Source: Betaproteobacteria bacterium
Lineage (GTDB): Bacteria; Pseudomonadota; Gammaproteobacteria; Burkholderiales; Methylophilaceae
NCBI GenBank assembly: GCA_016867975.1
Contig: VGIC01000002.1
Location: forward strand, 1-64,000
DNA length: 64,000 nucleotides
Direction: 5' to 3'
Below the pieces are notes generated by a model. It searched no databases and had not been told where the DNA came from. It worked only from the letters and a program-made list of their open reading frames with translations. How positions within the stretch are numbered: the stretch's first letter is position 1; every line of letters starts with the position of its first letter. Position numbers and translations under genes: made by a program. Shown here piece by piece: positions 1 through 22,275 of the stretch.

Positions 1-62
1 CCCGCTTCACCTTCCTTCAAGAAACCAATAATCTGCTCTTCTGTAAATCGACTCTTCTTCAT
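1..62 (-). CDS. IS3-family transposase OrfA, N-terminal fragment cut by the window edge
   Basis: The minus-strand ATG at 62 opens a frame reading MKKSRFTEEQIIGFLKEGEAG, the typical start of the helix-turn-helix OrfA of IS3-family elements of the IS407/IS51 type. A purine-rich site (TAGGAGTGG) lies just upstream. OrfA binds the element ends and is usually fused to the OrfB integrase by -1 frameshifting. Only about 20 codons are visible, so nothing can be said about whether the transposase is intact. Confidence 0.8.
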   Translation of the reverse strand, partial: MKKSRFTEEQIIGFLKEGEA

Positions 63-127: not shown

Positions 128-385
128 ATTGATACAATTCTTCTGAAAGGCTATGCAGCAGTAATTGGTACCGGATTCTGGATTGGGACTTTGATGTTGG
201 TCAATCTTTGGCTGGTGTTGTGGCCACATCAGAAGAAAGTACTTGGCTTCGTTCCCGCAACGCTGGAGGAGCGTGTGCGCTGCGCTCGTATCACCTTCTT
301 GTCCTCGCGCACGAACACCATGCTGTCCATTCCACTTTTGTTCTTTATGGCCGCCGGTTCGCATGGGGTAGCGTTGTTTGCCTGA
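128..385 (+). pseudogene. PuuD-like membrane protein, C-terminal remnant truncated by the IS
   Basis: This frame is open from inside the IS to a stop at 385. Beyond the IS edge it encodes about 85 residues with a hydrophobic segment (IGTGFWIGTLMLVNLWLVLW), the motif WPHQKKVLG and a final hydrophobic segment after SSRTNTMLSIP. These match the conserved core of the membrane domain seen in PuuD-type urate hydroxylases and in single-domain relatives often mislabelled NusG-like. Several N-terminal membrane helices expected in the family are missing, and no native start is visible. The ORF-track start (TTG 101) lies in IS sequence. The stop overlaps the TTG of the next gene by 8 nt, so they were probably one transcription unit before the insertion. 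Family assignment is from memory. Confidence 0.6.
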
Positions 386-1478
386 AACGTCTGAGAAGGT
401 ATTCAACTTCGCCGCCGGCCCCGGCGTCATGCCGCATGAGGTGCTCCGGCAAGCCAAGCAGGAGTTTCTTGACTGGGACGGTAGTGGATTCTCCATGCTG
501 GAAACTCCGTTTACCGGAGATGCCTTCAAAAAAGTTCTACATCAGGCACGCGATGATTTGCGTGAACTACTGAACATCCCAGACAACTATCGTATTTTGT
601 TCATGCACGGCGGTGCCTCAGCACAGTTCTCACTAGTGCCGCTCAATCTACTTGGTTCTGCGAGATCAGTTGATCACATCGATACGGGCTACTGGTCGTC
701 CAAGAGTCTACGAGAAGCGCGCCGTTACTGCAAAGTTCACGTTGCGGCTAGCAGTGCAGATAGCCAGTACGATCACATGCCGGAAAATTGGAAACTAAGC
801 CCGGAATCCGCCTATTGCCACTTCACTAGCAACGAAACTGCCAACGGCGTGCAGTTCCACCAGATTCCTGAAACTGGGGGCGTGCCATTGGTGGTGGACA
901 TGACCTCGGATTTCCTAAGTCGCCCGCTCGATGTGTCACGCTATGGACTGATCTACGCAAGCGCGCAGAAGAACGTTGGGCCGGCTGGCGTGACGGTCGT
1001 CATCGTACGAGATGATCTGCTTGGGAAAGCTCATCCGGCCACGCCCACTGTATTCAACTATGCCGCACAGGCAGAAGCAGACTCCATGCTGCAAACACCA
1101 GTCACATTCTCAGTTTATCTGGCCGGTTTAGTGTTTCGCTGGCTACGCCAACAGGGCGGTATAGCCACAATGGAGCAGAACAGCTTGCGGCGCAGCTCCA
1201 GTCTTTATCAGGTGATAGATGATAGCAATGGCTTTTATTGTTGCCCAATACAACATGGTCATCGTTCACACATGAACATCTGCTTTAGTACGACCAATGA
1301 TACCCTAGCCCCAGTATTTCTGTCTGAAGCAACTTCAGAAGGTCTTATGTACCTCAAAGGTCATCCCGTGATGGGAGGTATGCGTGCCAGCTTGTATAAC
1401 GCCATGCCAGATACTGGAGTCATGGCGCTAATTGAATTCATGCGGAGCTTCGCAGAAGCGCATCGCTATGATATATAA
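378..1478 (+). CDS. SerC-like class V aminotransferase with an altered phosphate-binding site
   Basis: This 366-residue PLP enzyme has the full-length fold of phosphoserine aminotransferase. The PLP lysine is K198 in SAQKNVGPAG, and the carboxylate-binding arginine is in GGMRAS (R336). Two positions that bind the substrate phosphate in E. coli SerC differ: the SHRG motif (His41-Arg42) is PFTG here, and KGHR (Arg329) is KGHP. The E. coli residue roles are family knowledge; the replacements are read directly. The enzyme probably does not use phosphoserine, but an amino acid or keto acid without that phosphate. The start is TTG at 378, giving the normal SerC N-terminus and overlapping the truncated upstream gene. 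The stop overlaps the downstream PyrD-like ATG by 11 nt, which indicates translational coupling. A diverged ordinary SerC cannot be excluded. Confidence 0.75.
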   Translation: MPETSEKVFNFAAGPGVMPHEVLRQAKQEFLDWDGSGFSMLETPFTGDAFKKVLHQARDDLRELLNIPDNYRILFMHGGASAQFSLVPLNLLGSARSVDHIDTGYWSSKSLREARRYCKVHVAASSADSQYDHMPENWKLSPESAYCHFTSNETANGVQFHQIPETGGVPLVVDMTSDFLSRPLDVSRYGLIYASAQKNVGPAGVTVVIVRDDLLGKAHPATPTVFNYAAQAEADSMLQTPVTFSVYLAGLVFRWLRQQGGIATMEQNSLRRSSSLYQVIDDSNGFYCCPIQHGHRSHMNICFSTTNDTLAPVFLSEATSEGLMYLKGHPVMGGMRASLYNAMPDTGVMALIEFMRSFAEAHRYDI

Positions 1479-2367
1479 GTGTTTTTCGACCATTGTCTCG
1501 AACTTCGGGGCACCTCATGTCAGAAGATTGGCAGTTAAGGCTATTCGGATAGCCGCGCTCATGACGCCTGCGGAACCACCTTCATCACTTCGTCGCGAGG
1601 TCATGGGGCTGACGTTCCCAAGCCCAGTCGGTCTTGCTGCCGGATTCGACAAGCATGGCGAGCTCTATTCATCTCTCCCACCACTGGGCTTAGGTTTCGT
1701 CGAAGTCGGTTCTGTCATCCCGCGCCCAGAACCTCAACGTAGTCAGGGAGTCGATGAAGTCGTTGCAATCCTGTCGCAAATCCCGCGGCCACATCCGATT
1801 CCCATCGGGGTCAGTATCAGCATGAACCGTAACACCCACCCAGATCAGATGGTTGATGATTATTTGGCCTGCCTCGAAAAACTCTGGAAATATGCGGACT
1901 ATTTTGCGATAAATCTCGGTGTGCGAACGGGTCCTGATTTGCATATGGAAGAACATGCCGGCACGTTGCGTAAAGTACTGACGGCTGCAAAAGCCTCACG
2001 AACTGACCTTGCCCGTATTACAGGTCTGAGGCGTCCAATGGCAGTCAAGATAGACTGCAACCGTGGTGACACGACATCGCTAGTGGCCTGTGTTCAGGAG
2101 TATGCGTTCGACAGTTTGATATTGAGTGGATATGTAGAACGTGGCAAAGAGCGCCACGCTCTTGAAGGGTTGGAGCAAGTGATAAAAAGTCTTGATGGTC
2201 AGATGCCGGTGATTTCGGTTGGGGGTATACGCACCCCGCAGGACGCCGTTGATCGGCTGTCTGCCGGAGCCACACTGATACAACTTTACAGCGGTATTGT
2301 TGAATCTGGCCCCCTTTTACCACGACGTATTAACTCACATTTGTCGAGCCAATTGGTAGGTTCATGA
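1468..2367 (+). CDS. PyrD-like FMN-binding protein with a non-canonical active site
   Basis: Starting at ATG 1468 this is a 299-residue TIM-barrel protein related to class 2 dihydroorotate dehydrogenases. The N-terminal FMN region (GLAAGFDKHGE, GFVEVGSVIPRP), a VKID lysine strand and the C-terminal phosphate loop (VGGIRTPQDA, LIQLYSG) are well kept. The NRMGFNN segment and the NxSSPNT loop with the catalytic serine of class 2 enzymes are absent; the corresponding stretch reads YFAINLGVRTG. It is therefore probably an FMN oxidoreductase acting on another substrate. The start lies inside the end of the SerC-like gene; the ORF-track start at 1432 would give a longer unsupported N-terminus. It ends about 90 bp before the convergent yhcC. 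Function unknown. Confidence 0.65.
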   Translation: MIYKCFSTIVSNFGAPHVRRLAVKAIRIAALMTPAEPPSSLRREVMGLTFPSPVGLAAGFDKHGELYSSLPPLGLGFVEVGSVIPRPEPQRSQGVDEVVAILSQIPRPHPIPIGVSISMNRNTHPDQMVDDYLACLEKLWKYADYFAINLGVRTGPDLHMEEHAGTLRKVLTAAKASRTDLARITGLRRPMAVKIDCNRGDTTSLVACVQEYAFDSLILSGYVERGKERHALEGLEQVIKSLDGQMPVISVGGIRTPQDAVDRLSAGATLIQLYSGIVESGPLLPRRINSHLSSQLVGS

Positions 2368-2455: not shown

Positions 2456-3370
2456 TTAGGTCCGACAACCTTGACGGGTGCCACGTCGGCGGAGCTCCCG
2501 TTCTATTCCATTAAGTACCTTCCATTTTTTAGAGCACCAGTCAGGCGCAAGCAGAACATCGCTAGCAGCAGTAGCTGTTACTCTGTGAAATATAATATGC
2601 TCTGGAGTGCGTTCAATCATATCTGCTGAAATTCTTATATAGTCATCCATGGACAAGGGGGAGTACTCACCGCGTTTCCATTGGTATGCTAACAAGGTGT
2701 TTTTTACCACATGAAGAGGATGAAGTTTGAGTCCATCGACACCAAGTTCAAGTACCTTGTCGAGCGTTGTATGACACTGTTCTTCACCTTCTCCTGGTAA
2801 TCCAATAATCAAATGGGTGCATACTGGTATACCACGCGCTCTGGCTGCCAATAAAGTTTCTTTATACTCTGAGAAACCATGCCCTCGGTTAACGCGTACA
2901 AGGGTTTCATCAAATGCAGATTGCAACCCAAGTTCCAGCCAAACTTCCCAGCCTTCATTTTGTAAGGTATCCAATAATTCAAGTACTTCAATAGGTACGC
3001 AGTCAGGTCTGGTGCCCACCGAAATTCCAATGATGTCAGGTTGTAACAAAGCTTCACGATAAAGGTTCTCTAGCAACGTTACGTCAGCATAGGTGTTTGT
3101 GTAAGCCTGAAAATATGCTAAAAAACGTTTCGCTCCGGTGCGTTTGGAAATGGCTATTTTTGCTTTGGCCATTTGACCATGTAAATCAAGATTTGAGTCA
3201 GCATCCGGGCTAAAAGACACATTATTGCAAAAGGTACAGCCACCATAACCTTTTGAGCCATCCCGGTTTGGGCAAGTGAATCCGACATCAAGTGCGATTT
3301 TATGCACGCGTTTTCGGTGTCGCTTGAGCAAGTGTTGTCCAAAAGTGTTTATTTTGTCTGAAAGTACCAT
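2456..3370 (-). CDS. yhcC: TIGR01212-family radical SAM protein, YhcC type
   Basis: This 304-residue protein has the usual length for the YhcC family. The radical SAM cluster motif appears as CPNRDGSKGYGGCTFCNN near residues 33-50, the non-standard CX14CX2C spacing typical of this family. Further conserved blocks are GTRPDCV, ELGLQSA, HLIIGLPGE and LKLHPLHVV. The biochemical role of YhcC is not established. The start ATG at 3370 has a purine-rich GTGGAG upstream. It lies downstream of ubiV on the same strand across 218 bp that contains no other gene, so it may be read from its own promoter or from the ubi transcript. It converges on the PyrD-like gene. Confidence 0.85.
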   Translation of the reverse strand: MVLSDKINTFGQHLLKRHRKRVHKIALDVGFTCPNRDGSKGYGGCTFCNNVSFSPDADSNLDLHGQMAKAKIAISKRTGAKRFLAYFQAYTNTYADVTLLENLYREALLQPDIIGISVGTRPDCVPIEVLELLDTLQNEGWEVWLELGLQSAFDETLVRVNRGHGFSEYKETLLAARARGIPVCTHLIIGLPGEGEEQCHTTLDKVLELGVDGLKLHPLHVVKNTLLAYQWKRGEYSPLSMDDYIRISADMIERTPEHIIFHRVTATAASDVLLAPDWCSKKWKVLNGIERELRRRGTRQGCRT

Positions 3371-3588: not shown

Positions 3589-4542
3589 TTATCTGCTCAA
3601 TGCATGGGTATGATTGCGCCATTCATACCCGGCAGCATGACTGTAAAATCCGTTAAAGCAAGGCACATCGCCCAATAAAGATTGGATAATCAAAGTGGCT
3701 TGTTCTCCGGTAATACGTCCATGCAATATTGAGTGGGCAGTTTCAATGATGGTGTCTGTATGTAAACTATGAGGTGATATACGAAAATTAGTAATGCCCA
3801 TCTCCATTAATTCCGGAATCTGGGGGAGAAGGTTAAGGTAACCATAAGACATGGTTTGTATGCCGTTTATACAAAGAAAACTCTGGTCTGTCAGGGTTTT
3901 TAATGGCATGCCATCAGGATCGTGTTCACAAACGTATTGACAGTTATCTTTGACTCGGCCGTACGAACGGGCGTGATAGCATCTCGCTGACAGCGCAAGG
4001 CCAACCCGTCCGGAAACCTGCACTTCAAGGCTGACGTCAAGCGTTTTGGCAGCTTTTCCCATAATATATATGGTGTTACGTGGTAGTTCCGCGGGCAGCA
4101 CTACATGATGAGCGCCATTTAAGGCCAGATATCTTAAAGTTTCCTCATTATAGACATTGCAGTATTGGCCGATTCGATGTGGTTTTTTTCGTAAATGATA
4201 GATTGCAGAGGTGTCATTTGCCTCAACCTCATATTTTTCGTCGTGACAAAGTGCCTCAGTCATTTTACGTTCACGCGGTGTCATGATTTCTGCCAGTGAG
4301 GAAAAAACTACTTTCTTACCTGCACGTGTCAGGCGATCAGTAACCTCGGCATAATAAGGCATCATAAAAGGCGATCGCTTCGAGCACACGACCTCTCCAA
4401 GGTAGACCGTATTGATAGGTGACTCATCAGCAATTTTTAAATAAAAGTCTCGCTTTGTTTCAGCAGACCAATGAAACAATATCGGTCCCAGCGTTAGATT
4501 ACCTTGTGCTGTATCCATGCTATCTCCAGCGTTTTGTTTCAT
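3589..4542 (-). CDS. ubiV: UbiV, U32-family protein of O2-independent ubiquinone synthesis
   Basis: UbiV with UbiU forms the iron-sulfur complex that hydroxylates ubiquinone precursors without molecular oxygen. The 317-residue product has the U32 fold motifs YLGEVVCSKR and CINGIQTMS. All four cysteines expected to ligate the [4Fe-4S] cluster can be located: VVC near the N-terminus, SARC, and the pair in DNCQYVC with CX3C spacing. The N-terminus is about 15 residues longer than E. coli UbiV; an internal ATG at residue 9 is an alternative start. It overlaps the end of ubiU by 23 nt, which points to one operon ubiT-ubiU-ubiV. Confidence 0.9.
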   Translation of the reverse strand: MKQNAGDSMDTAQGNLTLGPILFHWSAETKRDFYLKIADESPINTVYLGEVVCSKRSPFMMPYYAEVTDRLTRAGKKVVFSSLAEIMTPRERKMTEALCHDEKYEVEANDTSAIYHLRKKPHRIGQYCNVYNEETLRYLALNGAHHVVLPAELPRNTIYIMGKAAKTLDVSLEVQVSGRVGLALSARCYHARSYGRVKDNCQYVCEHDPDGMPLKTLTDQSFLCINGIQTMSYGYLNLLPQIPELMEMGITNFRISPHSLHTDTIIETAHSILHGRITGEQATLIIQSLLGDVPCFNGFYSHAAGYEWRNHTHALSR

Positions 4543-5533
4543 AGGCCCCCAACGTTTGTTTGTGGCCTTCAGTCAATGATAAAAGATGGTCCATATTCAC
4601 GGATCCACCCTCCAGAACACTATCGATAGCCTTTCTCCACGAAGAGACGACACTCTGTATATAAGCTTTTGAACGCTGGCGTCCTTCTATCTTAAAGGCG
4701 TCAACCCCTGCAGCAATTAATTCGGGGAGAAGAGACGCAAGATTCAGGCTTAATGGTTCTTCAAAAGCATAGTAAGGGTCATCCCTGTGAGCGACCGTGT
4801 AACGGCCCTTGCATATGGTCGGATAACCAGGGTTCTGCGAGCAGGAGAAGCTATCTATCGTAAATCTATTGAGCTCAGTACGAAGATTTCGATTGGCATC
4901 TACTTGATAACTTACAAAGTTAGCAGGTGAGCATATGCCATCCATGTTCGTTGATAAACCTGTTGCATAATTCGTAAGGCTACAGCGACCTTCAGCCATC
5001 AACCCATGGTTCCCGAAAATAAAGCATTCGATCTCACATGGTATTTCTTGCTTCAATGATTTTATTTCTGTAATAGTTAAAATACGTGGCAGTACAACAC
5101 GTTTGACATCAAATTCTTCACAATAAAATTTAATGGCTTCAATGGATGGAGCGCCCGCCTGCACTGAAAGGTGAAGCCGCAAATCCGAATGTTTGTTTTT
5201 TGCGTAGAGCGCCACGCCTATGTCTGCAACTATGATCGCATCAGCCCCCAGGTTATAAGCCAAATCAACGGCATTAGCCCACAACGGAAACTGCCCTGCG
5301 GGAGGAAAGGTGTTAAGCGCAACAAGTACCTGAGCTTTATGCGCATGCGCATAGGCAATCGACTCTTCCAATTCGGCAGGCGTAAAATTCAGACCGGGAA
5401 AGTTGCGGGCGTTGGTGGCATTTTGAAATCCACAATAGACTGTATCTGCTCCTGAATCGACCGCTGTGCGCAAAGAGGCTGGTGTACCTGCTGGGCATAC
5501 AAGTTCTGGTTTATGTTGAGTATTGATGTTCAT
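4520..5533 (-). CDS. ubiU: UbiU, U32-family partner of UbiV, with one cluster cysteine replaced
   Basis: UbiU is the second subunit of the O2-independent ubiquinone hydroxylation complex. The 337-residue sequence has the family motifs CPAGTPASLRTAVDSGAD near the N-terminus, LHLSVQAGA, LMAEGRCSLTNYATG and YPTICKGRY. In E. coli four cysteines (C169, C176, C193, C232) hold the [4Fe-4S] cluster. Here C184, C201 and C241 fit the last three, but the residue matching C169 is Gly177 (FGNHGLMAEGRC). Extra cysteines sit just before, at 166 and 170. Either the cluster uses a nearby cysteine or another ligand, or it is altered. The start codon is inside the end of ubiT (23 nt overlap). Confidence 0.9.
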   Translation of the reverse strand: MNINTQHKPELVCPAGTPASLRTAVDSGADTVYCGFQNATNARNFPGLNFTPAELEESIAYAHAHKAQVLVALNTFPPAGQFPLWANAVDLAYNLGADAIIVADIGVALYAKNKHSDLRLHLSVQAGAPSIEAIKFYCEEFDVKRVVLPRILTITEIKSLKQEIPCEIECFIFGNHGLMAEGRCSLTNYATGLSTNMDGICSPANFVSYQVDANRNLRTELNRFTIDSFSCSQNPGYPTICKGRYTVAHRDDPYYAFEEPLSLNLASLLPELIAAGVDAFKIEGRQRSKAYIQSVVSSWRKAIDSVLEGGSVNMDHLLSLTEGHKQTLGAYETKRWR

Positions 5534-6053
5534 TAGCCATTTTTATAAGTATTGTTAAGAACAGCATGCCGATTGGTCCAAAATAGGAAGCAGCTTCACT
5601 CGCTACGCTCCCTTCTACATCGTCCAGCGCGTTACGCAAACAGACAATTGCTTCTGTATCGCCAGATATTTGTAAATCACGCGTAAAAAAAAGTGCATCT
5701 CCATCAAGGCGTCCGTCTACCATTCCAATGAGAGCAAGAAATGAACCGGAAATTGTGGCGTCAGCGTGAAATCCAGTTTTTTTACGTATTGCAAGCAGAT
5801 GAGGGGATGCTGGGTTGGGGCAAAGTATTAAGTCAAAGGATAAGTTTGTAATTTCAATGAGAAAGGTTTTATGGTGGTGCCCTGACAGCCTGTTAAACAG
5901 AGTGGGATATTTCTTCGTGATTTTTACAATTGTGCGGTCTAGAACGTAATTAATCAGCGGCAATGGTATAGGACGGGCTAATAAACCCAGAAATTCTGCC
6001 TTGTGCGCAGGATTTTTTCTGAAACGTTGAGCCCGTATTGATAACATATTCAT
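5511..6053 (-). CDS. ubiT: UbiT, SCP2-domain lipid-binding protein for anaerobic ubiquinone synthesis
   Basis: UbiT is the SCP2-type accessory protein that replaces UbiJ in O2-independent ubiquinone synthesis, binding the hydrophobic intermediates. The 180-residue product has an SCP2 core (residues about 45-145, including LALIGMVDGRLDGDALFFTRDLQISGD with the typical sequence F..R.L.I.GDTE). It is the first gene of the ubiTUV operon. ATG 6053 and ATG 6047 are both possible starts, neither with a strong ribosome site. An FNR-type box lies 37-50 bp upstream. Confidence 0.88.
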   Translation of the reverse strand: MNMLSIRAQRFRKNPAHKAEFLGLLARPIPLPLINYVLDRTIVKITKKYPTLFNRLSGHHHKTFLIEITNLSFDLILCPNPASPHLLAIRKKTGFHADATISGSFLALIGMVDGRLDGDALFFTRDLQISGDTEAIVCLRNALDDVEGSVASEAASYFGPIGMLFLTILIKMANEHQYST

Positions 6054-6502: not shown

Positions 6503-6577
6503 AGATTACTTGCTGGATTCTCTACCACTAAACTAGTGTAAAAGGTGGGCGTCTGGTTTAGACGGAAAGAGCAGTTT

Positions 6578-7270
6578 ATGTCTCCTAAGATTATTTCACA
6601 AACGCTAGCGAATTTTTCTTTATTTAAAGAGCTTGGCTCAGATCAAATTGAGAAAATCGCAGAGCAGTCACGTGTGATTAACTTTCAAAAAGGACAAAGC
6701 GTTTTTAATTGTGGAGATCAAGCCATTGGCTTGTATATCTTGGTTGAAGGGCAGCTAAAGCTTGGGTTGATCTCCTCGCAGGGTACAGAAAGAATCCTCA
6801 GGATTATTTCTCCTAGTGAGAGTTTTGGTGAGGCGATTTTATATCTTGAACGTCAGTTTCCTGTTTACGCAAAAGCGATTATAGATTCGAAGGTTTTATT
6901 AGTTCCCAAAAATCTCATTTTTTCTATGCTTGATGCTAATCCTCACTACGCTCGCAAAATGCTGGCTGGCTTATCAATTAGAATGCATCAGCTAATTCAA
7001 AACATTGAAATGCTGTCGTTACAATCATCTACCCAGCGATTTATAACTTATTTGTTGCAAATCAGTGCCGAGGTCAAAGATGGGACGAAAATTAGGCTTC
7101 CTGCTAGCAAGGCAACAATTGCATCTTTATTGAATTTAAAGCCGGAAACTCTGTCCCGGATTCTCGCGAAACTACAAAAATTGGAGCTAATAGATGTGAG
7201 GGGAAGTAGCCTGACGATTATAGCTTTGAAAAAGCTCAGAAGCTATGATTTGAGTGTTTGTGAGGTATAA
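6578..7270 (+). CDS. dnr: Crp/Fnr-family regulator of the Dnr type
   Basis: The 230-residue protein has an N-terminal cyclic-nucleotide-type sensor fold (residues about 10-125), a dimerisation helix, and a C-terminal winged helix. The recognition helix contains KPETLSRIL, matching the E-x-x-S-R pattern that reads TTGAT half sites in FNR. It lacks the N-terminal cysteine cluster of FNR, so it is not an iron-sulfur oxygen sensor of that kind. It is closest in layout to the haem/NO-responsive Dnr group; the signal is inferred. ATG 6578, with GGAAAGAG upstream, is preferred over the ORF-track GTG at 6545. Only 2 nt separate it from pdxS. A perfect FNR/Dnr box lies upstream. Confidence 0.75.
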
Positions 7271-7272
7271 CT

Positions 7273-8193
7273 ATGCAATCAGATAAAGAAAATGATGCCG
7301 TTCGCCTAAAAGTTGGGCTTGCAGAGATGCTTAAAGGAGGCGTCATTATGGATGTCACCGATGCACGTCAAGCCGAAATTGCACAATCTGCAGGGGCTGT
7401 GGCTGTAATGGCCTTGGAACGGGTTCCAGCACAAATTCGGAGTGAAGGTGGCGTCGCGCGGATGGCTGCCCCGCAAAAAATTCGAGAAATTATGTCGGCC
7501 GTCAGCATTCCTGTAATGGCCAAATGCCGTATCGGACACTTTGCTGAAGCACAAATTTTGCAGGTTTTAGGTGTAGATTACATCGATGAATCAGAGGTGC
7601 TTACTCCTGCAGATGATGAATATCATGTGGATAAAAGTGCCTTCAGAGTGCCATTTGTTTGTGGAGCAAAAAATCTAGGGGAGGCCTTAAGGCGGATCAA
7701 TGAGGGTGCAGCGATGATTCGTACAAAAGGAGAAGCGGGAACTGGAGATATTGTGCATGCAGTAAAGCATTTGCGAAATATCCGTCGAGAGATTAGATCG
7801 TTAACACTCCTTGAAGATGCTGAGCTTTACTCCTACGCTAAGAATCTACAGGCACCCTATCATTTGGTTCATTTAGTGGCAAAATCTGGGAAGCTGCCAG
7901 TTCCAAATTTTTCTGCAGGAGGTGTTGCTACGCCTGCAGATGCTGCATTGGTCCGTCAACTTGGTGCCGAATCTGTATTTGTTGGTTCGGGTATCTTTAT
8001 GAAAGATTCAGTAACGTTCTGTTCCGAAGCCGAGGCTGAATCAAGAGCAAAAGCGATTGTGCGAGCCACAGTTTATTTTGAAGATCCTAAAATTCTCCTT
8101 GAAACTGCTGCTGAATTACTTGGCACCATGAAGGGTCTGGCTACATCACAGCTGGTTACTGGCGATTTACTTCAATATCGTGGGGCATCGTGA
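7273..8193 (+). CDS. pdxS: PdxS, synthase subunit of the PLP synthase complex
   Basis: PdxS condenses ribose 5-phosphate, glyceraldehyde 3-phosphate and ammonia directly into pyridoxal 5'-phosphate, without deoxyxylulose phosphate or the O2-dependent PdxH oxidase. The 306-residue barrel shows the family motifs [33 protein letters not shown] and [12 protein letters not shown]27, K84 and K151 correspond to the catalytic Asp and the two Schiff-base lysines. A GAGG ribosome site lies in the end of dnr. The stop overlaps the pdxT GTG. Most betaproteobacteria use the PdxA/PdxJ route, so this gene is unusual here and may have been acquired. Confidence 0.95.
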
Positions 8194-8792
8194 TTTCTTC
8201 TTTATCGATAGGTGTTTTAGCGCTCCAAGGTAGTTACGACGCCCATCTGCAAAGCCTTAAAAGATTCTCCGTAAATGCCAGGTTAATTCACCATGCAGAG
8301 GACTTGGCATCCATCGATGCGTTGATTGTTCCTGGCGGAGAATCAACAACCATGTTGGAGCTTCTTAAAAAAACTGGTTACTTTTGGGAAGAGTTGCAGC
8401 AATTTGTTCATAAAAAGCCATCTTTAGGAACATGCGCTGGTGCAATATTACTGGCATCAAATGTGGAAAATCCCACTCAAGACTGTTTGGGTGCGCTCGA
8501 TATCACTGTTCAGCGAAATGCTTACGGTCGACAATTACAAAGTTCAATTCATGATGGTAGGTGCAAGTTTGATGATAGTGACATTGAACTTGTATTCATA
8601 CGTGCGCCTAAAATTGTCAGAACTGGATCTGCAGTTGAAGTGCTGGCCGAACATGATGGAAGCCCGATTTGGGTGAAGCAGGGCCAAACGATGGCAGCAA
8701 CCTTTCATCCAGAGCTAACTTCGAACGCCATCGTGTATGAAAAGTGGTTAGAAAACATTAAGCCTGATATCACTGCATTGCTGAAATTTTAG
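8190..8792 (+). CDS. pdxT: PdxT, glutaminase subunit of the PLP synthase complex
   Basis: PdxT releases ammonia from glutamine and channels it to PdxS. The 200-residue class I amidotransferase has [12 protein letters not shown] at the start, the oxyanion segment PGGESTTM, the nucleophile Cys82 in LGTCAGAI, and the catalytic His-Glu in FHPEL. All catalytic residues are present. The GTG start at 8190 overlaps the pdxS stop (GTGA), so translation is coupled and the two subunits are made together. Confidence 0.95.
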
Positions 8793-8848
8793 ACACGTGT
8801 CATAGGCTTAAACCTTTGCGGAAATTGCATCTAATTTAAGGAGAGATA

Positions 8849-8932
8849 ATGGCGCGTTTCCAAGCCCGGGATGGTGGTAGCCAAGACCTCGACCTAATCG
8901 CTTGCGTATCGATCAACGTGCATCGGTGTTGA
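8849..8932 (+). CDS. Possible 27-residue peptide with a strong ribosome site
   Basis: An ATG at 8849 follows TAAGGAGAGATA, a good Shine-Dalgarno sequence at suitable spacing. The frame runs 27 codons (MARFQARDGGSQDLDLIACV...) to a TGA. It lies 56 bp after pdxT and is too short for the ORF track. No family is recognised and there is no signal peptide or membrane segment. It could be a leader peptide, the remnant of a longer gene, or chance. Confidence 0.3.
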   Translation: MARFQARDGGSQDLDLIACVSINVHRC

Positions 8933-8991
8933 GCGCTTTTGCAGCTAAATAATCGTATTTGAGTCGGTATATATGCATAACCTACAGACAT

Positions 8992-9017
8992 AAAAAAAGC
9001 CCACATTACTGTGAGCT
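8992..9017 (-). terminator. Intrinsic terminator of tRNA-Phe
   Basis: On the minus strand AGCTCACA-GTAA-TGTGGGCT forms an 8-bp stem with one G-U pair, followed by seven T. It lies about 10 nt past the tRNA-Phe CCA end. Confidence 0.85.
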
Positions 9018-9026
9018 TAATTTTAC

Positions 9027-9102
<76 letters not shown>

Positions 9103-9264
9103 GACATGCAAACGCTGGTGCGTTGTTTGCAAGTCGCGCATTATAGCAAATTTCATCACGGTGTGATAAAAATTTTGCTGGCGACATTGGGATATCGTCT
9201 TTTATACGATTTTTAAGTTCGTTCTGTGTTCATATTCGTTTGCGCGTTGTAGAATCCTTTTCCT

Positions 9265-10308
9265 ATGAAATTCAATATTGATCCGCCACAACAGGCGCTT
9301 AGAACAGCATTGCTGGATAAGGTGAACAAAAAAACCAAGCCTCTTGGTGCTTTGGGTTTGTTGGAGGAGGTGGCCATTCAAGTAGGGTTGATTCAACAAA
9401 CCTTGTCACCTCAATTGTCAAATCCTGCCATGTTGGTCTTTGCCGCGGATCATGGCATTGCGATTTCTGGCGTGAGTCCTTATCCACAAGCGGTGACTGC
9501 CCAGATGGTATATAACTTTCTGCAAGGTGGGGCAGCCATCAATGTGTTTGCGCATCAACATGGCATGCATTTGCGTGTGATCGATGCCGGTGTTAACCAT
9601 GATTTTGGGGTGAGTCCTGATTTGATTGATGCAAAAATTGCACGGGGGACAGCTAACTTCCTGTATGAGCCGGCCATGTCGAAAGCCCAATGCGAGCAGG
9701 CAATAATGGTGGGTGCGGCGATAGCAAGAAAGGAGTTGGCGATCGGCTGTAATGTTTTCGGTTTTGGCGAGATGGGTATAGGTAACACTTCATCTGCCAG
9801 TTGTTTGATGAGTGTGTTGTGTCAATTGCCTTTGTCTGCTTGCGTGGGACGTGGCACCGGTTTGGATGATGTAGGCTTAGCCAGAAAGTTGGCGGTACTG
9901 GAGCAAGCGGTGAGTTTGCATGCGGTTGATAACTCACAACCTATGGAGGTGCTGGCGACTTTTGGCGGCTTTGAGCTTGCTATGATGGTGGGGGCAATGT
10001 TGGGGGCTGCTGAACAAAAGGCGTTGTTGCTGGTGGATGGTTTTATTGCTACGGCTGCTTTGTTGGTTGCTAGTCAATTAGCACCGGCGATTTTGCATTA
10101 TTGTGTGTTTGCACATTGCTCAGGTGAGGCTGGGCATCGTCAATTATTACAACATTTAGGTGCGACCCCGTTACTGGATATCGGTTTGCGTCTTGGGGAG
10201 GGGACTGGTGCAGCTTTGGCCTATCCGCTCGTGCAATCAGCGGTGAATTTCTTGAATGAGATGGCTTCGTTTGAGAGCGCAGGTGTGAGCTCGCGGGGGG
10301 GGGCTTAA
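9265..10308 (+). CDS. cobT: CobT, nicotinate-nucleotide-dimethylbenzimidazole phosphoribosyltransferase
   Basis: CobT activates 5,6-dimethylbenzimidazole to alpha-ribazole phosphate, the precursor of the lower ligand of cobalamin. At 347 residues it has the normal length. Motifs include [11 protein letters not shown] near the N-terminus, [20 protein letters not shown] in the middle and [12 protein letters not shown] with the catalytic glutamate near the C-terminus. The last codons contain a run of nine G (10295-10303) just before the stop. CobS follows after 2 nt. It pairs functionally with BluB, which makes the DMB base and is encoded in the opposite-strand operon of the same island. Confidence 0.96.
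10295..10303 (+). repeat. G9 homopolymer at the cobT-cobS junction
   Basis: Nine consecutive G within the last codons of cobT (SSRGGA-stop). One extra G in DNA or mRNA would skip the cobT stop and read through TTA ATA GTG straight into the cobS frame, giving a CobT-CobS fusion. The tract is long enough to be slippage-prone. No evidence of actual slippage is available from sequence alone. Confidence 0.8.
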
Positions 10309-10310
10309 TA

Positions 10311-11114
10311 GTGCAATCGCTAACAAAAGAATGGCAAAGGGTTTGCTTGGCGTTTGGATTTTTTACGCGCATTTCCGTCCCCAGCTTGGATAGTTTTAAG
10401 GAAGAGGATTTGGCTGGCGCTGCTAAGTATTTCCCCTTGGTAGGTATTGTGGTGGGGATGGTTGGTGCGGGCATGTATCTGGTTGCTACGCGCCTTTTCC
10501 CCAGCAGTATTGCAATATTGTTGAGTATGGCAGCTACGCTCTATTTGACGGGTGCTTTTCATGAGGATGGGTTGGCGGATAGTGCAGATGGCTTTGGTGG
10601 AGGATGGGGAAGAGAGCAAATACTCACTATTATGCAGGATTCCAGACTTGGCACTTATGGAGCCGTGGTGTTATGTTTGGTGTTGTTTGGTAAATATCAG
10701 GTGCTGAATGCATTGCCGGATTATTTTCTGGCATTTATCCTGGTGGTGGGGCATGCATTGAGTCGTTTAGCCGCAGTCTATGTAATGGCAAGTCTGCCTT
10801 ATGCCAAGCCTGATGGTAAGGCTAAGCCGTTGGCTACCAGGGTCGGTTGGCCGGATTTGTGCGTTGCGACGGTGTTGGCCTGTTTGCCTATACCGCTCTT
10901 CTATTGGCATTTTTCGCCATTTGTGTTTGAGGCCAAGGATTGGTTGGTGTTGGGGGGGCATTGCGTGTCACCGATGATTTTGGTTTGGATCTGGTGGCGC
11001 AATAAAATCCAACATTGGTTGGGTGGTTACACGGGTGATTGTTTAGGCGCCATGCAACAATTGACAGAGCTTGCGCTTTATATTGGGTTGCTTGCTTGGT
11101 GTCAGCAGCTATGA
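10311..11114 (+). CDS. cobS: CobS, adenosylcobinamide-GDP ribazoletransferase
   Basis: CobS is the membrane enzyme that joins adenosylcobinamide-GDP to alpha-ribazole (phosphate) to complete cobalamin. The 267-residue protein shows the family signature GAFHEDGLADSADGFGGG (about residues 81-98), with the acidic residues that bind the metal and substrate, plus the block MQDSRLGTYG. Several hydrophobic helices follow. The start is GTG 10311, 2 nt after the cobT stop. Its TGA overlaps the ATG of cobC, so cobT-cobS-cobC form a tight operon. Confidence 0.96.
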   Translation: MQSLTKEWQRVCLAFGFFTRISVPSLDSFKEEDLAGAAKYFPLVGIVVGMVGAGMYLVATRLFPSSIAILLSMAATLYLTGAFHEDGLADSADGFGGGWGREQILTIMQDSRLGTYGAVVLCLVLFGKYQVLNALPDYFLAFILVVGHALSRLAAVYVMASLPYAKPDGKAKPLATRVGWPDLCVATVLACLPIPLFYWHFSPFVFEAKDWLVLGGHCVSPMILVWIWWRNKIQHWLGGYTGDCLGAMQQLTELALYIGLLAWCQQL

Positions 11115-11677
11115 ATCTGCATTTGATACGTCATACCTCGCTCAATATTCCCGCTAGCATCTGTTATGGGCAGAGCGATGTAGATGTTTCAGAAAACTTC
11201 GAGGCTGAGTGTGCCACGCTGGCGAGTAAACTGACAGCGATTAAATTTGATGCTGTTTACGCCAGCCCATTGCAGCGTTGTACCAAGTTGGCACAGGCGC
11301 TCAATTTGGGTGCGGTTCATATAGATGAGCGTTTGAAAGAGCTACATTTCGGCGATTGGGAGATGCAAGCTTGGGAGAGTATTCCGCGCAATGTGTTTGA
11401 CACGTGGGCCAATGATTATGCGAACCTTACTCCGCCTAATGGGGAGAGCTTCTCGCAGCTACACGCGCGTACAAAGAAGTTTGTAGAGGAAGTGAGCGGA
11501 CACTCTCGTGGCAAAGAGATAGCCGTAGTAACGCATGGCGGTGTGATACGTGCCATTCTTGCGGAAGTGCTGAATATGCCGTTAAAAGGCTTATTTAGAA
11601 TCGTGATTGATCATGCCAGCGTGACGCAGATTTCGTTTGGCGAAGTAGTGCCTAGAATTCACTTTGTGAATCGATAA
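11111..11677 (+). CDS. cobC: CobC, alpha-ribazole-5'-phosphate phosphatase
   Basis: CobC is a histidine-phosphatase family enzyme that removes the 5'-phosphate from alpha-ribazole phosphate or cobalamin phosphate. From ATG 11111 it has 188 residues. The catalytic N-terminus is HLIRHTS (the RH motif), followed by ASPLQRC, ELHFGDWE and the second histidine in VVTHGGVIRA. The ORF-track start at 11039 lies inside cobS and is rejected in favour of the ATGA overlap with the cobS stop. It converges on cobD with a 4-nt gap and no obvious T-rich terminator between them. Confidence 0.93.
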   Translation: MNLHLIRHTSLNIPASICYGQSDVDVSENFEAECATLASKLTAIKFDAVYASPLQRCTKLAQALNLGAVHIDERLKELHFGDWEMQAWESIPRNVFDTWANDYANLTPPNGESFSQLHARTKKFVEEVSGHSRGKEIAVVTHGGVIRAILAEVLNMPLKGLFRIVIDHASVTQISFGEVVPRIHFVNR

Positions 11678-11681
11678 GCGA

Positions 11682-12653
11682 TCAGAGTGTTTTAAGCGCT
11701 TCCTCTAATCGTCCCCAGCCATTCTCATGGGGCAACCCAAAACGCAACGCTGGCGTGTCTGTGAATAGTCTTACCCATATGCCCCGAGTAGCCAGGTGAT
11801 GTTGCCATTGTATGGCTTTTGCTGTGGGAGTGTACTGAAACAACGCTGTGCCAGCTTGCGGTGCTAAATGATGTTCGCTGAGCAGTGCTACCAGGCGCTG
11901 ACTTTTATGGGCAAGAGCTAGACGTGTTTTGTCTTGCCAAGCCTTGTCAAGCAATGCCTGTTTTGCAATCAGGCGACTTGCGCCCGTGAGTGTCCATGGA
12001 CCTAGCTCTTCCTGTACCCTGGCAAGTTGCGAATCTTCGGCAAGTAAAAACCCCACCCTTGCCCCAGCCAAGCCAAAGAACTTGCCGAGAGAGCGTAATA
12101 CAAAGAGCCCTTCTAGGTGGGCATGTTGGGCAATGCTATATTCTGGTGTGGTATCCATAAAGGCTTCATCAACTATCAGCCAGCCACCACGTCGCCTCAA
12201 GTGGTTATGTAAGTCTAGCAGCTCCATTGGCGTGAATAATCTGGCCGTTGGGTTGTTTGGGTTGCAGATTAAGACGACGTCTGCCTGAGCTACTGACGTA
12301 TCGGCCAAGCTGGTAAAGCTGCTGACAGCATGCCCCTGACGTTGCCATGCATGTGCATGTTCACGATACATGGGGTTGAGCATGGCAACCTTACAAACTG
12401 GGCGAAGCCTTGGCAATACTTGTAATGCAGCTTGTGAACCCGCAGTAGGGAGTAGTGACTGGCATCCATAATAACTGCATGCGGACTTTATCAAATCATC
12501 GTCATTATCAGGAAGTCTTTGCCATACCGCGTCAGGAACCACTGTGACAGGGTAATTGTCTGGGTTAATCCCTGTCGATAGGTCTAGCCAGTCGGCAAGC
12601 GGGATACCGTACATTTTTGATGCCAAGGATAAGTTGCCGCCATGTTCAAGCAA
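11682..12653 (-). CDS. cobD: CobD, L-threonine-O-3-phosphate decarboxylase
   Basis: This PLP enzyme makes (R)-1-amino-2-propanol phosphate, the linker between the corrin ring and the nucleotide loop (Salmonella CobD; CobC in Pseudomonas denitrificans naming). The 323-residue aminotransferase-fold protein has the N-terminal HGGNL, DLSTGINP, the pyridine-binding ICNPNNPT, DEAFMD, and the PLP lysine in SLGKFFGLAGAR. It is complete. Its start overlaps the end of cbiB by 8 nt, consistent with coupled translation of the two enzymes that make and attach the linker. Confidence 0.92.
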   Translation of the reverse strand: MLEHGGNLSLASKMYGIPLADWLDLSTGINPDNYPVTVVPDAVWQRLPDNDDDLIKSACSYYGCQSLLPTAGSQAALQVLPRLRPVCKVAMLNPMYREHAHAWQRQGHAVSSFTSLADTSVAQADVVLICNPNNPTARLFTPMELLDLHNHLRRRGGWLIVDEAFMDTTPEYSIAQHAHLEGLFVLRSLGKFFGLAGARVGFLLAEDSQLARVQEELGPWTLTGASRLIAKQALLDKAWQDKTRLALAHKSQRLVALLSEHHLAPQAGTALFQYTPTAKAIQWQHHLATRGIWVRLFTDTPALRFGLPHENGWGRLEEALKTL

Positions 12654-13617
12654 AATGGATGCTCCTTAGAAATTCTGTCGTGATGATGATGAGGCACCAT
12701 AATATCAGGCTGTGTTTGACCAGCTTGATTGCGTGCAGAACATGATGCAACTGGGCTGGTTCGCCCATGCCTAATGTGGGGCGCTGTTTAACCGTGCCAT
12801 GATAGCTGGCTACACCGCCCAATTTTACTCTGAGCGCGCCCGCGCCGCTCGCCATCACGGGCCCTGCATTGGGGCTATACCAGGTGTGAGCTTGGGTAAG
12901 CCAGCATTTGAGCGCACTCGCCGTGTGGCCACAAAGGGCATAGCTGAGTGCAGTGAGACGTGCGGGAATTAAATTGAGCAGGTCATCCAAGCGTGCGGCA
13001 GCCCAGCCAAAATACAAAAAGCGCGGTGTGCGGTAACCCCACATGGCATCCAGTGTGTTGGCCAATCTGAAAACAAGTGCGCCTGTGCCGCCGAATAGCA
13101 CAAACCAGAAAATCGTACCGAACACCGCATCATTGCCATTCTCGAGTACAGATTCAATCGTGGCCGTGGCGATTTGATTTTCATTTAGTTGCGATGTGTC
13201 GCGGCTGACAATCATGCTGACATGATAACGAGCCTGCTCAAGGTGATGCTGCGATAGCGGTTGATAAATCTGTTCTGCATGCTGCACCAGACTGCGCGCG
13301 CCAATGGAAAAATATAATAGCAGCACGTTAGCCAGCCATGCGATTGGGTCGTGAGTTAGTGCACTGTTGGTAACAAAATAGCTGATTGCCGCAAAAGGCA
13401 CCAATAGAGAAAACCAAGCCAGCAAGCCGGCAAGCCTGACCCTTAGGGTGGTGGCGCCTATATTCAATCGCTGTTCGATCATTGCTGCTAGATTGCCAAA
13501 CCCCACCAAAGGGTGCCAGCGTTTTGGCTCACCAAGCAAAGCATCGAGCCACACTGCAACAATGATAGCGAGCCCTGTGCTATATGGGCTGATGATGGGA
13601 TAATAGTCGAATGGCAT
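12646..13617 (-). CDS. cbiB: CbiB, adenosylcobinamide-phosphate synthase
   Basis: CbiB attaches the aminopropanol (phosphate) linker to adenosylcobyric acid. The 323-residue membrane protein begins, after a short leader, with a hydrophobic helix and the family motif [18 protein letters not shown]. Later blocks are [29 protein letters not shown] and [21 protein letters not shown]. The start codon (ATG 13617) overlaps face to face with the ATG of cbiP at 13611 on the other strand, so the two divergent genes share their first codons and each promoter must lie within the other gene. Confidence 0.92.
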
Positions 13618-15110
13618 TTAAATCACTTATGGTTCAGGGCACTACGTCTGATGCGGGGAAAAGCACCCTAGTCGCGGCACTGTGTCGCGTATTGTATCGC
13701 AGAGGCATGCGTGTTGCGCCGTTTAAGCCACAAAATATGGCGTTAAACTCGGCAGTGACTGTCGATGGCGGTGAAATCGGTCGTGCACAGGCAGTGCAGG
13801 CTTTTGCATGCGGTCTGGAGCCGCACACCGATATGAACCCTGTGTTGTTAAAACCTAACTCTGATACTGGCTGCCAGGTAATTGTGCACGGTAAAGTCGT
13901 CACCAACTTGGAAGCGACCAGTTATCATGCCTATAAACCAGTTGCCATGCGTGCGGTGCTGGATTCTTGGCGGCGCTTACAGGATCAATATGACTGCATC
14001 ATCGTAGAAGGCGCGGGTAGCCCAGCAGAGATCAATTTACGTGACAATGACATTGCCAATATGGGATTTGCCGAGGCGGTGGATTGCCCGGTCATTCTGA
14101 TAGCGGATATAGACCGTGGCGGGGTGTTTGCGCATATTGTTGGCACATTGGCATTGCTTTCCGAACCTGAAAAAGCGAGAGTGGTTGGTTTTGTTATCAA
14201 CCGCTTTAGGGGTGATATTGCACTGCTGCAATCGGGTTTGGATTGGTTGGAGCAGGAGACAGGAAAGCCGGTATTGGGCGTGCTGCCGTATTTGCATGGG
14301 TTGCACATTGAGGCTGAAGACTCAGTGCCGAAGCAGACGCAATTGAGCGGTAACGTTGCCGGTCATGTTCCAAATTCGAATGTGCTCGGCGCGAGAATAA
14401 AAGTCATTGTTCCGGTGCTGCCCCATATCAGCAACCACACGGATTTTGATGCACTGCGTTTGCATCCACAGGTGGATTTTCAATTCATTAATATGAATGA
14501 AGTTATCCCGCCTGCAGATTTGATTATCTTGCCTGGGAGCAAAAATGTGCGGGGTGATCTTGATTGTTTGCGGGCTAATGGTTGGGAGCAAGCACTTACT
14601 CATCATTTGCGCTATGGTGGAAAAGTAATTGGTGTGTGTGGCGGGTTCCAGATGCTTGGTCGCATGATACATGACCCGCTGGCGATAGAAGGAGATGCGG
14701 GCTCTAGCGCGGGGTTTGGTTGGTTGGAAATGGAAACGACGCTTGAAAAAACCAAGCAATTAAAGCAGGTCGTCGGGCAGATGGCTTTTGCAAGTGTAGC
14801 CATTACGGGTTATGAAATTCACATGGGCGTAAGCACTGGGGTTGCATTAGACAACCCCGCAATGTATTTAAATGAAGCATCTCAACCCAAGCAACCAGAA
14901 GGTGCAATGTCGCAGGACAATCAAATCGCGGGGACTTATTTGCATGGGCTGTTTGACCATCACGAGGCCTGCGCAGCTTGGCTACAGTGGGCCGGACTGC
15001 AAGTAGAGCAGCGTTTTGACTATGAAAAATTACGCGATGATGCGCTGAACCGCTTGGCAGACTGTGTGGAAAAGCATTTAGATTGGGATAGGGTGGCAGA
15101 ATATATTTAG
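13611..15110 (+). CDS. cbiP: CbiP/CobQ, cobyric acid synthase
   Basis: This glutamine amidotransferase amidates the b, d, e and g side chains of adenosylcobyrinic acid a,c-diamide. The 499-residue protein has the N-terminal ATP-binding domain starting [14 protein letters not shown], followed by [11 protein letters not shown] and [12 protein letters not shown]. The C-terminal class I-like glutaminase domain has [10 protein letters not shown] (nucleophile Cys) and the His in TYLHGLFDH. It is full length. ATG 13611 gives the usual family N-terminus; its 7-bp overlap with the divergent cbiB start is noted separately. The next plus-strand gene is far downstream, so it is probably monocistronic. 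Confidence 0.96.
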
Positions 15111-15218
15111 GGTGCTTCTATAAATGCCCATTTTTGCGAGCATCAGCTGCGCTGATTGCTTGTTTAAACCACTTGGTGGCATTACTGCGAGCCAGTTACG
15201 CGATGCTTCTTCTAGCGC

Positions 15219-15431
15219 TTATAAGACCTTAATTTGCTGTCCTAAACATTCTACGAGTTGCCCGCTACGTATTTTTGCAGTTTTGCGAAATTCCACTTCA
15301 CCATCCACGGTGACCAGCCCTTCAGCTACCATGGCTTTACCTTGGCCGCCACTTTCGGCGATACCTTCTGTTTTAAGTAAATCACAAAGGGCAATGTATT
15401 CGCCTTTTAATTTAAATGTCGTGATTTCCAT
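15219..15431 (-). CDS. S4-domain RNA-binding protein, YbcJ type
   Basis: A 70-residue protein made of a single S4 RNA-binding fold: ALCDLLKTEGIAESGGQGKAMV, then GLVTVDGEVE with the characteristic basic and glycine pattern and FRKTAKIRSG. It resembles E. coli YbcJ, whose exact role is unclear. It is the last gene of the minus-strand cobalamin operon, 2 nt after cobU. No functional link to cobalamin is known; it is probably just co-transcribed. The overlapping plus-strand ORF 15124-15444 is a shadow. Confidence 0.85.
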   Translation of the reverse strand: MEITTFKLKGEYIALCDLLKTEGIAESGGQGKAMVAEGLVTVDGEVEFRKTAKIRSGQLVECLGQQIKVL

Positions 15432-15433
15432 GC

Positions 15434-15964
15434 TTATCCTTTGAGGTGAAGTGGTAGCCCGGCAGCAATAAAACTCACATTGTCTGCGATGTTGGCAATC
15501 GCTTGGTTCAGTCTACCCTGTTCATCTTGGAACTGGCGATTAATTTCGCCCAGTGGCACGATTCCCATACCCACTTCATTGCTGACCAGAAACATATGCC
15601 CTTGCACAGAAGGCAGTGCGTCAAGTAGTGTCTTACGCTCTTGATCCCAATTTAAGTGTTTTGGACGTTCGCAATCGGGGCAAATGCATTGTGCCAACCA
15701 GAGTGTGAGGCAATCTACAATGACACATTCGCCTGCTTTGGCATGCGTTAACATTGCTTCTGCCAAATTGAAAGATTGCTCAATAGTTTTCCAATGGGCG
15801 GGACGTCTGTTTTTGTGATGCGCTACGCGCTGGCCAAATTCGGCATCATAAACTTGAGCGGTGGCAATGTAGGTGACTGGCAAACCACTTTCCGTAGCCA
15901 GTTTTTCTGCAAATGCGCTTTTGCCGGAACGGGCGCCGCCTAGAATCAGGTGAATATTACGCAT
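15434..15964 (-). CDS. cobU: CobU, adenosylcobinamide kinase and guanylyltransferase
   Basis: CobU phosphorylates adenosylcobinamide and transfers GMP to give adenosylcobinamide-GDP, the substrate of CobS. From ATG 15964 it has 176 residues, the normal family length. It starts LILGGARSGKSAFAE (P-loop), then HHKNRRPAHWKT with the histidine that carries GMP, VDCLTLWL and VSNEVGMGIVP. The longer ORF-track start at 16120 would add 52 residues inside bluB without similarity. The start overlaps the bluB end by 8 nt, in line with tight coupling. Confidence 0.95.
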   Translation of the reverse strand: MRNIHLILGGARSGKSAFAEKLATESGLPVTYIATAQVYDAEFGQRVAHHKNRRPAHWKTIEQSFNLAEAMLTHAKAGECVIVDCLTLWLAQCICPDCERPKHLNWDQERKTLLDALPSVQGHMFLVSNEVGMGIVPLGEINRQFQDEQGRLNQAIANIADNVSFIAAGLPLHLKG

Positions 15965-16622
15965 GCGGTTTCCAGGTGTTTTCCATGACCATGTCGGCAA
16001 GCGGTCTTGGCTGTTTCCAGCCGGTTTCCACCAACATGGGTGATTTGTAAAAAGTACTGACGTGTCCCAAACACAATACGGCAATCGGTTTGGCATCTTG
16101 CGGCATGTGCAGTAGCGCACCCAGTTTTATCGGGTCAAAAATTGACACCCAGCCCATTCCCAAGCCCTCGGCGCGTGCGGCTAGCCACATATTCTGTATC
16201 GCACAGCTCACTGAGGCGATATCCATTTCTGGTAGTGTTCTGCGCCCAAAGACGTGTGCATCACGTTTATCGCATAGCGTAGCCACCAGCAACTCACCAC
16301 ATTCTAAAATACCTTCGACTTTCAATCGCAAGAACTCCGCCATGCGGTCAGCGTTTTCATTTTCGCCAATGGCGTACGCGGTTTGAATGCGCTCTTCATC
16401 TACCAATTTGTGTATCGCTTGGCGCATGTTCGCATCAGTGATACGGATAAATCGCCATGGCTGCATCAGCCCTACGCTGGGTGCTTGGTGGGCTACTTGC
16501 AGTATGCGCGACAGCACTTCCGGAGCGACAGGGTCCGGCAAGAAGTGCCGCATGTCACGGCGTTCTGCTATCACACGATAGACAGCGGCTATTTCTTCTT
16601 CAGAATAGCGATGAGTACTCAT
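15957..16622 (-). CDS. bluB: BluB, 5,6-dimethylbenzimidazole synthase
   Basis: BluB is a nitroreductase-fold flavoenzyme that breaks down reduced FMN with O2 to form 5,6-dimethylbenzimidazole, the lower ligand base of cobalamin. The 221-residue protein begins with VYRVIAERRDMRHFLPDPV and contains HQAPSVGLMQPWRFI, the conserved BluB substrate and flavin region, and GMGWVSIF. The reaction needs O2, in contrast to the O2-independent pathways encoded at 3.5-8.8 kb. It overlaps cbiA by 4 nt and cobU by 8 nt. Its presence implies that the organism makes true cobalamin. Confidence 0.94.
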   Translation of the reverse strand: MSTHRYSEEEIAAVYRVIAERRDMRHFLPDPVAPEVLSRILQVAHQAPSVGLMQPWRFIRITDANMRQAIHKLVDEERIQTAYAIGENENADRMAEFLRLKVEGILECGELLVATLCDKRDAHVFGRRTLPEMDIASVSCAIQNMWLAARAEGLGMGWVSIFDPIKLGALLHMPQDAKPIAVLCLGHVSTFYKSPMLVETGWKQPRPLADMVMENTWKPHA

Positions 16623-22099: not shown

Positions 22100-22275
22100 T
22101 TCACAGTCTGCCGCACTTACCCCCTTGTATTTACCCCAATCTTTACGCATTGAGAATTTCTAATGGAAATTTGGGATGATCACTTGGAAGGCTCAAAACT
22201 GTGTCAAATCTTCCGCCGTATCAAGCTTGCCTTAAAGTCGTAATCCAGTGGATGGGGTGGTAAGGGCGGGCCGTC
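22100..22275 (+). ncRNA. ssrS: Probable 6S RNA
   Basis: Directly downstream of zapA, where 6S RNA is found in most proteobacteria, a roughly 170-nt stretch folds on a long closing stem: CCGCACTTACCCCC (22111-22124) pairs with GGTGGTAAGGGCGG (22256-22269) with only two mismatches. A GCCTTAAA block inside recalls the E. coli sequence. 6S RNA mimics an open promoter and binds the housekeeping RNA polymerase. Exact ends are estimates, and the 3' end touches the nnrS stop. Assignment rests on synteny and fold rather than primary sequence. Confidence 0.65.

Follow-up and report, generated by a model that had tools for sequence, protein, structure and literature searches.

PqqB and PqqC carry out the O2-dependent steps of PQQ synthesis, PqqC being an O2-using oxidase. 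PQQ synthesis has been treated as O2-requiring, and a study from 2024 on growth with methanol under anaerobic conditions concluded that PQQ enzymes function without O2 only when PQQ is carried over or supplied from outside (PMC11102522). The closest described system is the pqqADE-puuD-serC-pyrD cluster, which Li et al. (2025; PMC12423496) report from Hyphomicrobium denitrificans (Hden_0548-0553), with transcription data for that species, and from a few other denitrifiers; several of the carriers named are methylotrophs, for which PQQ is a requirement in the absence of O2. Such clusters were proposed, at the level of "tempting to speculate", to complete PQQ without oxygen. The idea of O2-independent PQQ synthesis through this cluster is theirs, while in the literature that we searched no experimental test of it was found and the product was unreported. 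Here, we describe a 64,000-nucleotide stretch of bacterial DNA (termed the window) carrying a real, and probably truncated, member of this cluster type, and compare it with operons in related genomes.

Base 1 of the window is base 1 of contig C2 in a genome assembly of 1.56 Mb that is 92.7% complete. The 3' half of a PuuD-like membrane protein gene (mem), a serC-like gene (serC') and a pyrD-like gene (pyrD') lie in that order at positions 128-2367, with mem overlapping serC' by 8 nt (378-385) and serC' overlapping pyrD' by 11 nt (1468-1478). A sequence-only reading of the window had placed the latter two genes and their overlap exactly here, and had described a neofunctionalised pair acting in an unknown pathway next to an insertion sequence (IS); it recorded neither the cut mem gene (~128-385) nor the lack of pqqADE. 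The IS adjacency is less firm, the contig end holding just the first 20 codons of an IS3-type transposase, with an HTH_Tnp_1 match under the Pfam cut-off. Downstream, the order of ubiT, ubiU and ubiV is the same in the window, L035 and L037-L039, and regulator-pdxS-pdxT-pqqA2 is the gene order in L035. Further into the window, cobalamin synthesis and salvage genes were recognized by eye at 9265-18480, followed by an NnrS-like gene at 22274-23491.

Table 1. Features of the window locus and protease genes of related operons (positions without a prefix are those of the window; L numbers denote other loci)
Feature	Position	Strand	Remarks
IS3-type transposase OrfA, first 20 codons (MKKSRFTEEQIIGFLKEGEA)	3..62	-	runs off contig end; HTH_Tnp_1 E=0.011, under Pfam cut-off
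mem, PuuD-like membrane protein gene, 3' half	128..385	+	cut at codon ~83 of 167, beside IS end; Urate_ox_N
serC', aminotransferase class V, SerC-like, altered substrate site	378..1478	+	TTG start, 366 aa; Aminotran_5 E=5.9e-48
pyrD', flavoprotein related to dihydroorotate dehydrogenase, without its substrate site	1468..2367	+	ATG at 1468, 299 aa; DHO_dh E=2e-31
Radical SAM protein, YhcC-like	2456..3370	-	Radical_SAM and Radical_SAM_C; flanks operon in L035 too
UbiV-like U32 protein (O2-independent ubiquinone synthesis)	3589..4542	-	Peptidase_U32
UbiU-like U32 protein	4520..5533	-	Peptidase_U32; for distribution within genus see text
UbiT-like SCP2 protein	5511..6053	-	SCP2
Crp/Fnr-type regulator	6545..7270	+	named by reading sequence; L035 counterpart upstream of pqqA2
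pdxS (O2-independent PLP synthesis with pdxT)	7273..8193	+	SOR_SNZ
pdxT	8190-8792		3' of pdxS; named by reading
M48/CAAX-type membrane protease	L060:8807-9985		
M48/CAAX-type membrane protease	L137:421-1665		
M48/CAAX-type membrane protease	L138:5028-6326		
M48/CAAX-type membrane protease	L139:4344-5588		
M48/CAAX-type membrane protease	L140:13415-14581		
M48/CAAX-type membrane protease	L142:9099-10346		
M48/CAAX-type membrane protease	L143:7408-8667		

With the window PyrD' as query, orthologues were found in four other genomes (53-60% identity), all of the same genus as the window; among named relatives, the nearest one carrying the locus is a Methylotenera MAG. The host is accordingly a Methylotenera-like methylotroph. 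Upstream of the pair in all four lie genes for a 24-aa PqqA-like peptide (MQWxEPDFCDLRLGFEVTAYVYVR), PqqD, PqqE and a 167-aa membrane protein. More widely, the SerC-like gene is the fifth of an operon, pqqA2-pqqD2-pqqE2-mem-serC', in 15 other genomes or plasmids of Beta-, Gamma- and Alphaproteobacteria, with pyrD', a gene for an M48 membrane protease, or both on its 3' side; no counterpart of pqqB or pqqC was found in any of these operons. The label of an unknown pathway is thus not supported and the question largely settled, since the neighbourhood conserved at these 15 loci is that of a second PQQ operon, a cluster type for which O2-independent PQQ synthesis had already been proposed (PMC12423496). 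The full order with pyrD' is seen in L035, L037-L039, L074, L113, L060, L073 and L137, while pyrD' is absent from six alphaproteobacterial operons. The suggestion that SerC' and PyrD' belong together stands, but as these six operons show, SerC' does not always have PyrD' as its partner. To recognize operons in distant classes, the membrane-protein profile was able to serve where a narrow PyrD' profile could not tell canonical PyrD from PyrD'.

The operon is found in varied surroundings. Seven of the genomes with it belong to a different class of the phylum, which we take to be Alphaproteobacteria. It is also carried by a mobilizable plasmid of 45.8 kb in Acidibrevibacterium fodinaquatile and by a Methylovirgula plasmid, on which a CbpA/CbpB radical-SAM peptide system also lies a few genes upstream (L073:3980-5559). 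In G101, a genome from the order of the window host, it sits inside a heme d1/NnrS denitrification cluster (genes named by reading), and in a gammaproteobacterial genome (G496) beside canonical pqq genes and a PQQ-dehydrogenase. PQQ-dehydrogenase genes adjoin the operon in L113, L138 and L140, which favours PQQ as its product. Canonical pqqA-B-C-D-E is intact on contig C16 of the window genome, and canonical pqqC was found in 6/6 operon genomes tested, a set separate from the seven alphaproteobacterial operon genomes.

PqqA2, PqqD2 and PqqE2 all score above their NCBIfam equivalog cut-offs (33>20, 86>46 and 507>381 bits, respectively). In every operon the C-terminus of PqqA2 is CDLRLGFEVTAYVYVR or differs little from it, whereas the ends of canonical PqqA are variable; its last 16 residues, CDxRLGFEVTAYVYVR, are constant with small variation from Alpha- to Gammaproteobacteria, and by this pattern PqqA2 is a peptide class of its own. 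An M48/CAAX-type membrane protease gene (identified by Pfam for six operons and by reading for L141 and L142) lies directly 3' of serC' or pyrD' in Acidibrevibacterium and seven further operons, being divergent and adjoining in L140, and we propose its product as a candidate PqqA2-processing protease. In the pqqE-mem interval, L140 holds a gene for a second radical SAM/SPASM protein (10396-11490), and L138, whose operon is without pyrD', holds one for an acyl-CoA-dehydrogenase-like flavoprotein (8668-9990), a possible stand-in dehydrogenase.

To characterize the substrate site of SerC', it was aligned to E. coli SerC (1BJN/1BJO), with ~50% identity to canonical SerC. As had been read from the sequence, the window protein retains the PLP lysine K198 and the carboxylate arginine R335, together with D174, T153, Q197 and W102, while the phosphate-binding pair H41-R42 is replaced by F-T and R329 by P. 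N239, which we take to be a PLP-phosphate contact, is Q in the window protein, unique among the SerC' compared. The changes recur elsewhere: S40P, H41F, R42T/S/G, S176T and I179F/L are common to 16/16 operon-linked SerC', in contrast to S, H, R, S and I in all canonical SerC compared, and R329 is lost in 15/16, the exception being L138. In a tree of these 16 with eight canonical SerC, SerC' forms one clade (support 100/99), and the full set of residue changes is not due to chance. In E. coli SerC, the side-chain carboxylate of the substrate is bound by H41' and R42' (PMC6797613). Retention of the PLP residues and R335 with replacement of H41/R42 points to an altered substrate, and we infer that the alpha-carboxylate of an amino acid is still recognized by SerC', although neither phosphoserine nor glutamate would be bound in the usual way. 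Exactly one canonical SerC is present besides SerC' in 7/7 genomes checked.

PyrD' belongs to the same superfamily as class 2 PyrD of E. coli (1F76) and, in the alignment to it, retains the FMN residues AAGxD, N172, K217 and G296-G297. Its substrate loops are gone: residues ~95-117 (E. coli numbering) are deleted, including NRMGFNN with N111; in the window protein S175 is V, N177 is T and N246 is G, and the SGxP loop is lost. This agrees with the earlier description of kept FMN motifs and a missing NRMGFNN and serine catalytic segment, although S at 175 persists in 2/9 PyrD'. PyrD' is also shorter (234-299 aa) and scores 156 bits, under the TIGR01036 cut-off of 200. The pair are not the only serC and pyrD of the window genome, the canonical genes lying on contigs C16 and C15, and the residues agree that both proteins are neofunctionalised, with intact cofactor sites and changed substrate sites. 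In summary, the earlier observation is confirmed, while its interpretation as a whole is partly supported.

Full-length mem is 167 aa, with a partial Urate_ox_N match and the family-invariant residues H13, H23, E57-H58 and H161. It corresponds to the short, 4-helix DUF989 variants described in PMC4562309, thus having four of the eight helices of PuuD, and differs from PuuD in its length, its gene context and the absence of both the full 8-helix domain and the cytochrome c domain. PuuD oxidises urate, apparently through cytochrome c and without H2O2, and its cytochrome c domain is suggested to be essential (PMC4562309). AlphaFold2 models of mem (mean pLDDT 53, shallow alignment) and of PyrD' (mean pLDDT 50, shallow alignment of two sequences) were too low in confidence for a fold search.

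We then considered the anaerobic setting. Genes resembling ubiU, ubiV and ubiT adjoin the operon in 5/5 Methylotenera loci. Within the genus, ubiU is present in 5/37 genomes, and the operon in 4/5 of these versus 0/32 others; as the two sets of genes are linked, this co-occurrence reflects joint inheritance and does not represent separate events. In L035 and L073, a Crp/Fnr gene stands before pqqA2. FNR-like boxes, matching at 9 or 10 of 10 positions, precede 5/15 pqqA2 versus 0/16 canonical pqqA, a share that was 5/8 in the first loci; at this frequency they may hint weakly at anaerobic regulation, against which their absence from 10/15 operons must be counted.

Gene membership, conservation, residue changes and neighbourhood are observed here, whereas we infer the identity of the product, each catalytic step and the order of steps. 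The function of the operon is probably O2-independent PQQ biosynthesis. The specific version of this idea, in which mem, the repurposed SerC and, in some carriers, PyrD replace PqqB and PqqC in a complete pathway, with a dedicated M48/CAAX-type protease processing PqqA2 in alphaproteobacteria, we hold to be evenly poised between right and wrong. In this pathway, the radical SAM enzyme PqqE2 would receive the PqqA2 peptide from PqqD2 and would cross-link the Glu and the Tyr within the GFEVTAY motif; the linked pair would then be released by a protease, in many alphaproteobacteria probably the M48 membrane protease of the operon itself. Mem may then hydroxylate or oxidise the tyrosine ring in place of the O2-using PqqB, passing electrons to cytochrome c or a quinone, with the oxygen probably coming from water. 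SerC' would form a PLP imine with the alpha-amino acid part of the intermediate, its former phosphate-carboxylate site at H41/R42 now being predicted as hydrophobic and suited to a bulky aromatic substrate. PyrD', where present, could finish the ring by FMN-dependent dehydrogenation and aromatisation in place of PqqC. Counted against this pathway are the lack of a cytochrome c domain in mem and the difficulty of fitting a SerC' step into PQQ chemistry as known, and six operons without pyrD' mean that PyrD' cannot always be the PqqC replacement. If true, an O2-free PQQ route would explain methanol oxidation by denitrifying methylotrophs, and would be a case of quinone cofactor synthesis recruiting a PLP enzyme together with a dihydroorotate dehydrogenase relative.

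Canonical pqqC is present in all six genomes tested, so that none of these is evidence for the operon sufficing by itself; this weighs against O2-independent PQQ synthesis and bears on two alternatives. The main rival, which we consider unlikely, is that the operon makes a PqqA2-derived cofactor or small molecule other than PQQ, such as an aminated or decarboxylated analogue. Co-occurrence with pqqC is expected if the products differ, PqqA2 is a distinct and very constrained peptide, and PQQ chemistry as known offers SerC' no role; the ExxxY core, PqqE and PqqD at equivalog level and the three PQQ-dehydrogenase neighbourhoods nevertheless speak for PQQ, as does the description of carriers in PMC12423496 as denitrifiers including several methylotrophs needing PQQ without O2. 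Less probable still is that the operon only provides more precursor or salvages intermediates when O2 is low, with PqqB, PqqC and trace O2 finishing PQQ. This would fit both the retained pqqC and the duplication of pqqADE without B and C, but it makes three additional conserved enzymes superfluous, and pqqB and pqqC are neither linked nor co-duplicated, the linked genes being those for anaerobic ubiquinone synthesis.

It is very improbable that SerC' is simply an isozyme of phosphoserine aminotransferase and PyrD' one of dihydroorotate dehydrogenase, and this reading was rejected. SerC' does exceed the NCBIfam serC cut-offs (NF003764, 481.5>253 bits; TIGR01364, 455>443.6 bits), such that automatic naming by these equivalog models calls it a phosphoserine transaminase, a misnomer; against this stand the substrate residues replaced in all members, the canonical copies elsewhere in the genome, the sub-threshold PyrD' score and the fixed PQQ gene context. 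Anti-phage and IS-cargo readings were likewise rejected; the defence-system library gave no match.

O2-independent PQQ synthesis as the function of the family is compatible with a separate reading of the window copy, to which we give slightly less than an even chance: that it is a decaying remnant, in which a transposon removed pqqADE2 and half of mem, leaving serC' and pyrD' without a present function. The window holds only the 3' part of the operon. In relatives the second pqqA, pqqD and pqqE lie directly upstream, whereas the window assembly is without them and the contig ends at the IS; pqqE2 was not found in this assembly, nor was the N-terminal half of mem, for which a profile search matched only residues 83-168 (E=3e-46), and in the intact L035 protein the remnant has residues 83-167 as its counterpart. 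At alignment columns that are invariant in the other SerC', the window protein additionally carries five changes of its own, N239Q among them, versus 0-2 in relatives. On the other side, serC', pyrD' and the 85-codon mem remainder are all intact, and their dN/dS of ~0.05-0.08 argues against long decay, although dS near saturation makes dN/dS fail as a decay test. The rest may also simply be unassembled, the assembly being 92.7% complete and ending at the IS: either transposon removal or a short unassembled piece beyond the repeat would account for the missing 5' part, and the window copy may thus be incomplete. Between the window and L035, UbiU (4520-5533) has a dS of 0.42, yet serC' and pyrD' (378-2367) are synonymously saturated; it seems that operon copies at this site were exchanged without the genes that flank them.

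Compared with canonical pqqABCDE, the operon shares a PqqA with ExxxY, PqqD and PqqE, but is without PqqB and PqqC, has a distinct PqqA2 C-terminus and adds mem, SerC', PyrD' and the M48 protease. The UbiU/UbiV/UbiT route to ubiquinone is alike in that O2-free steps replace O2-dependent ones while the aerobic set is retained, and its genes adjoin the operon in Methylotenera, although its proteins are unrelated to those of the operon. The H. denitrificans cluster (PMC12423496) has the same gene set and order, co-occurs with canonical pqqABCDE and is linked to denitrification and ubiXDTUV; the window copy differs in lacking pqqADE and half of mem. To that description we add the near-invariant PqqA2 C-terminus, the single SerC' clade with P-F-T/S/G fixed for S-H-R, a dihydroorotate site that PyrD' has lost entirely, the PQQ-dehydrogenase neighbours and the co-occurrence with ubiU within a genus, as well as the M48 partner and the six operons without pyrD', a protease-bearing branch that the available portion of the paper leaves unmentioned.
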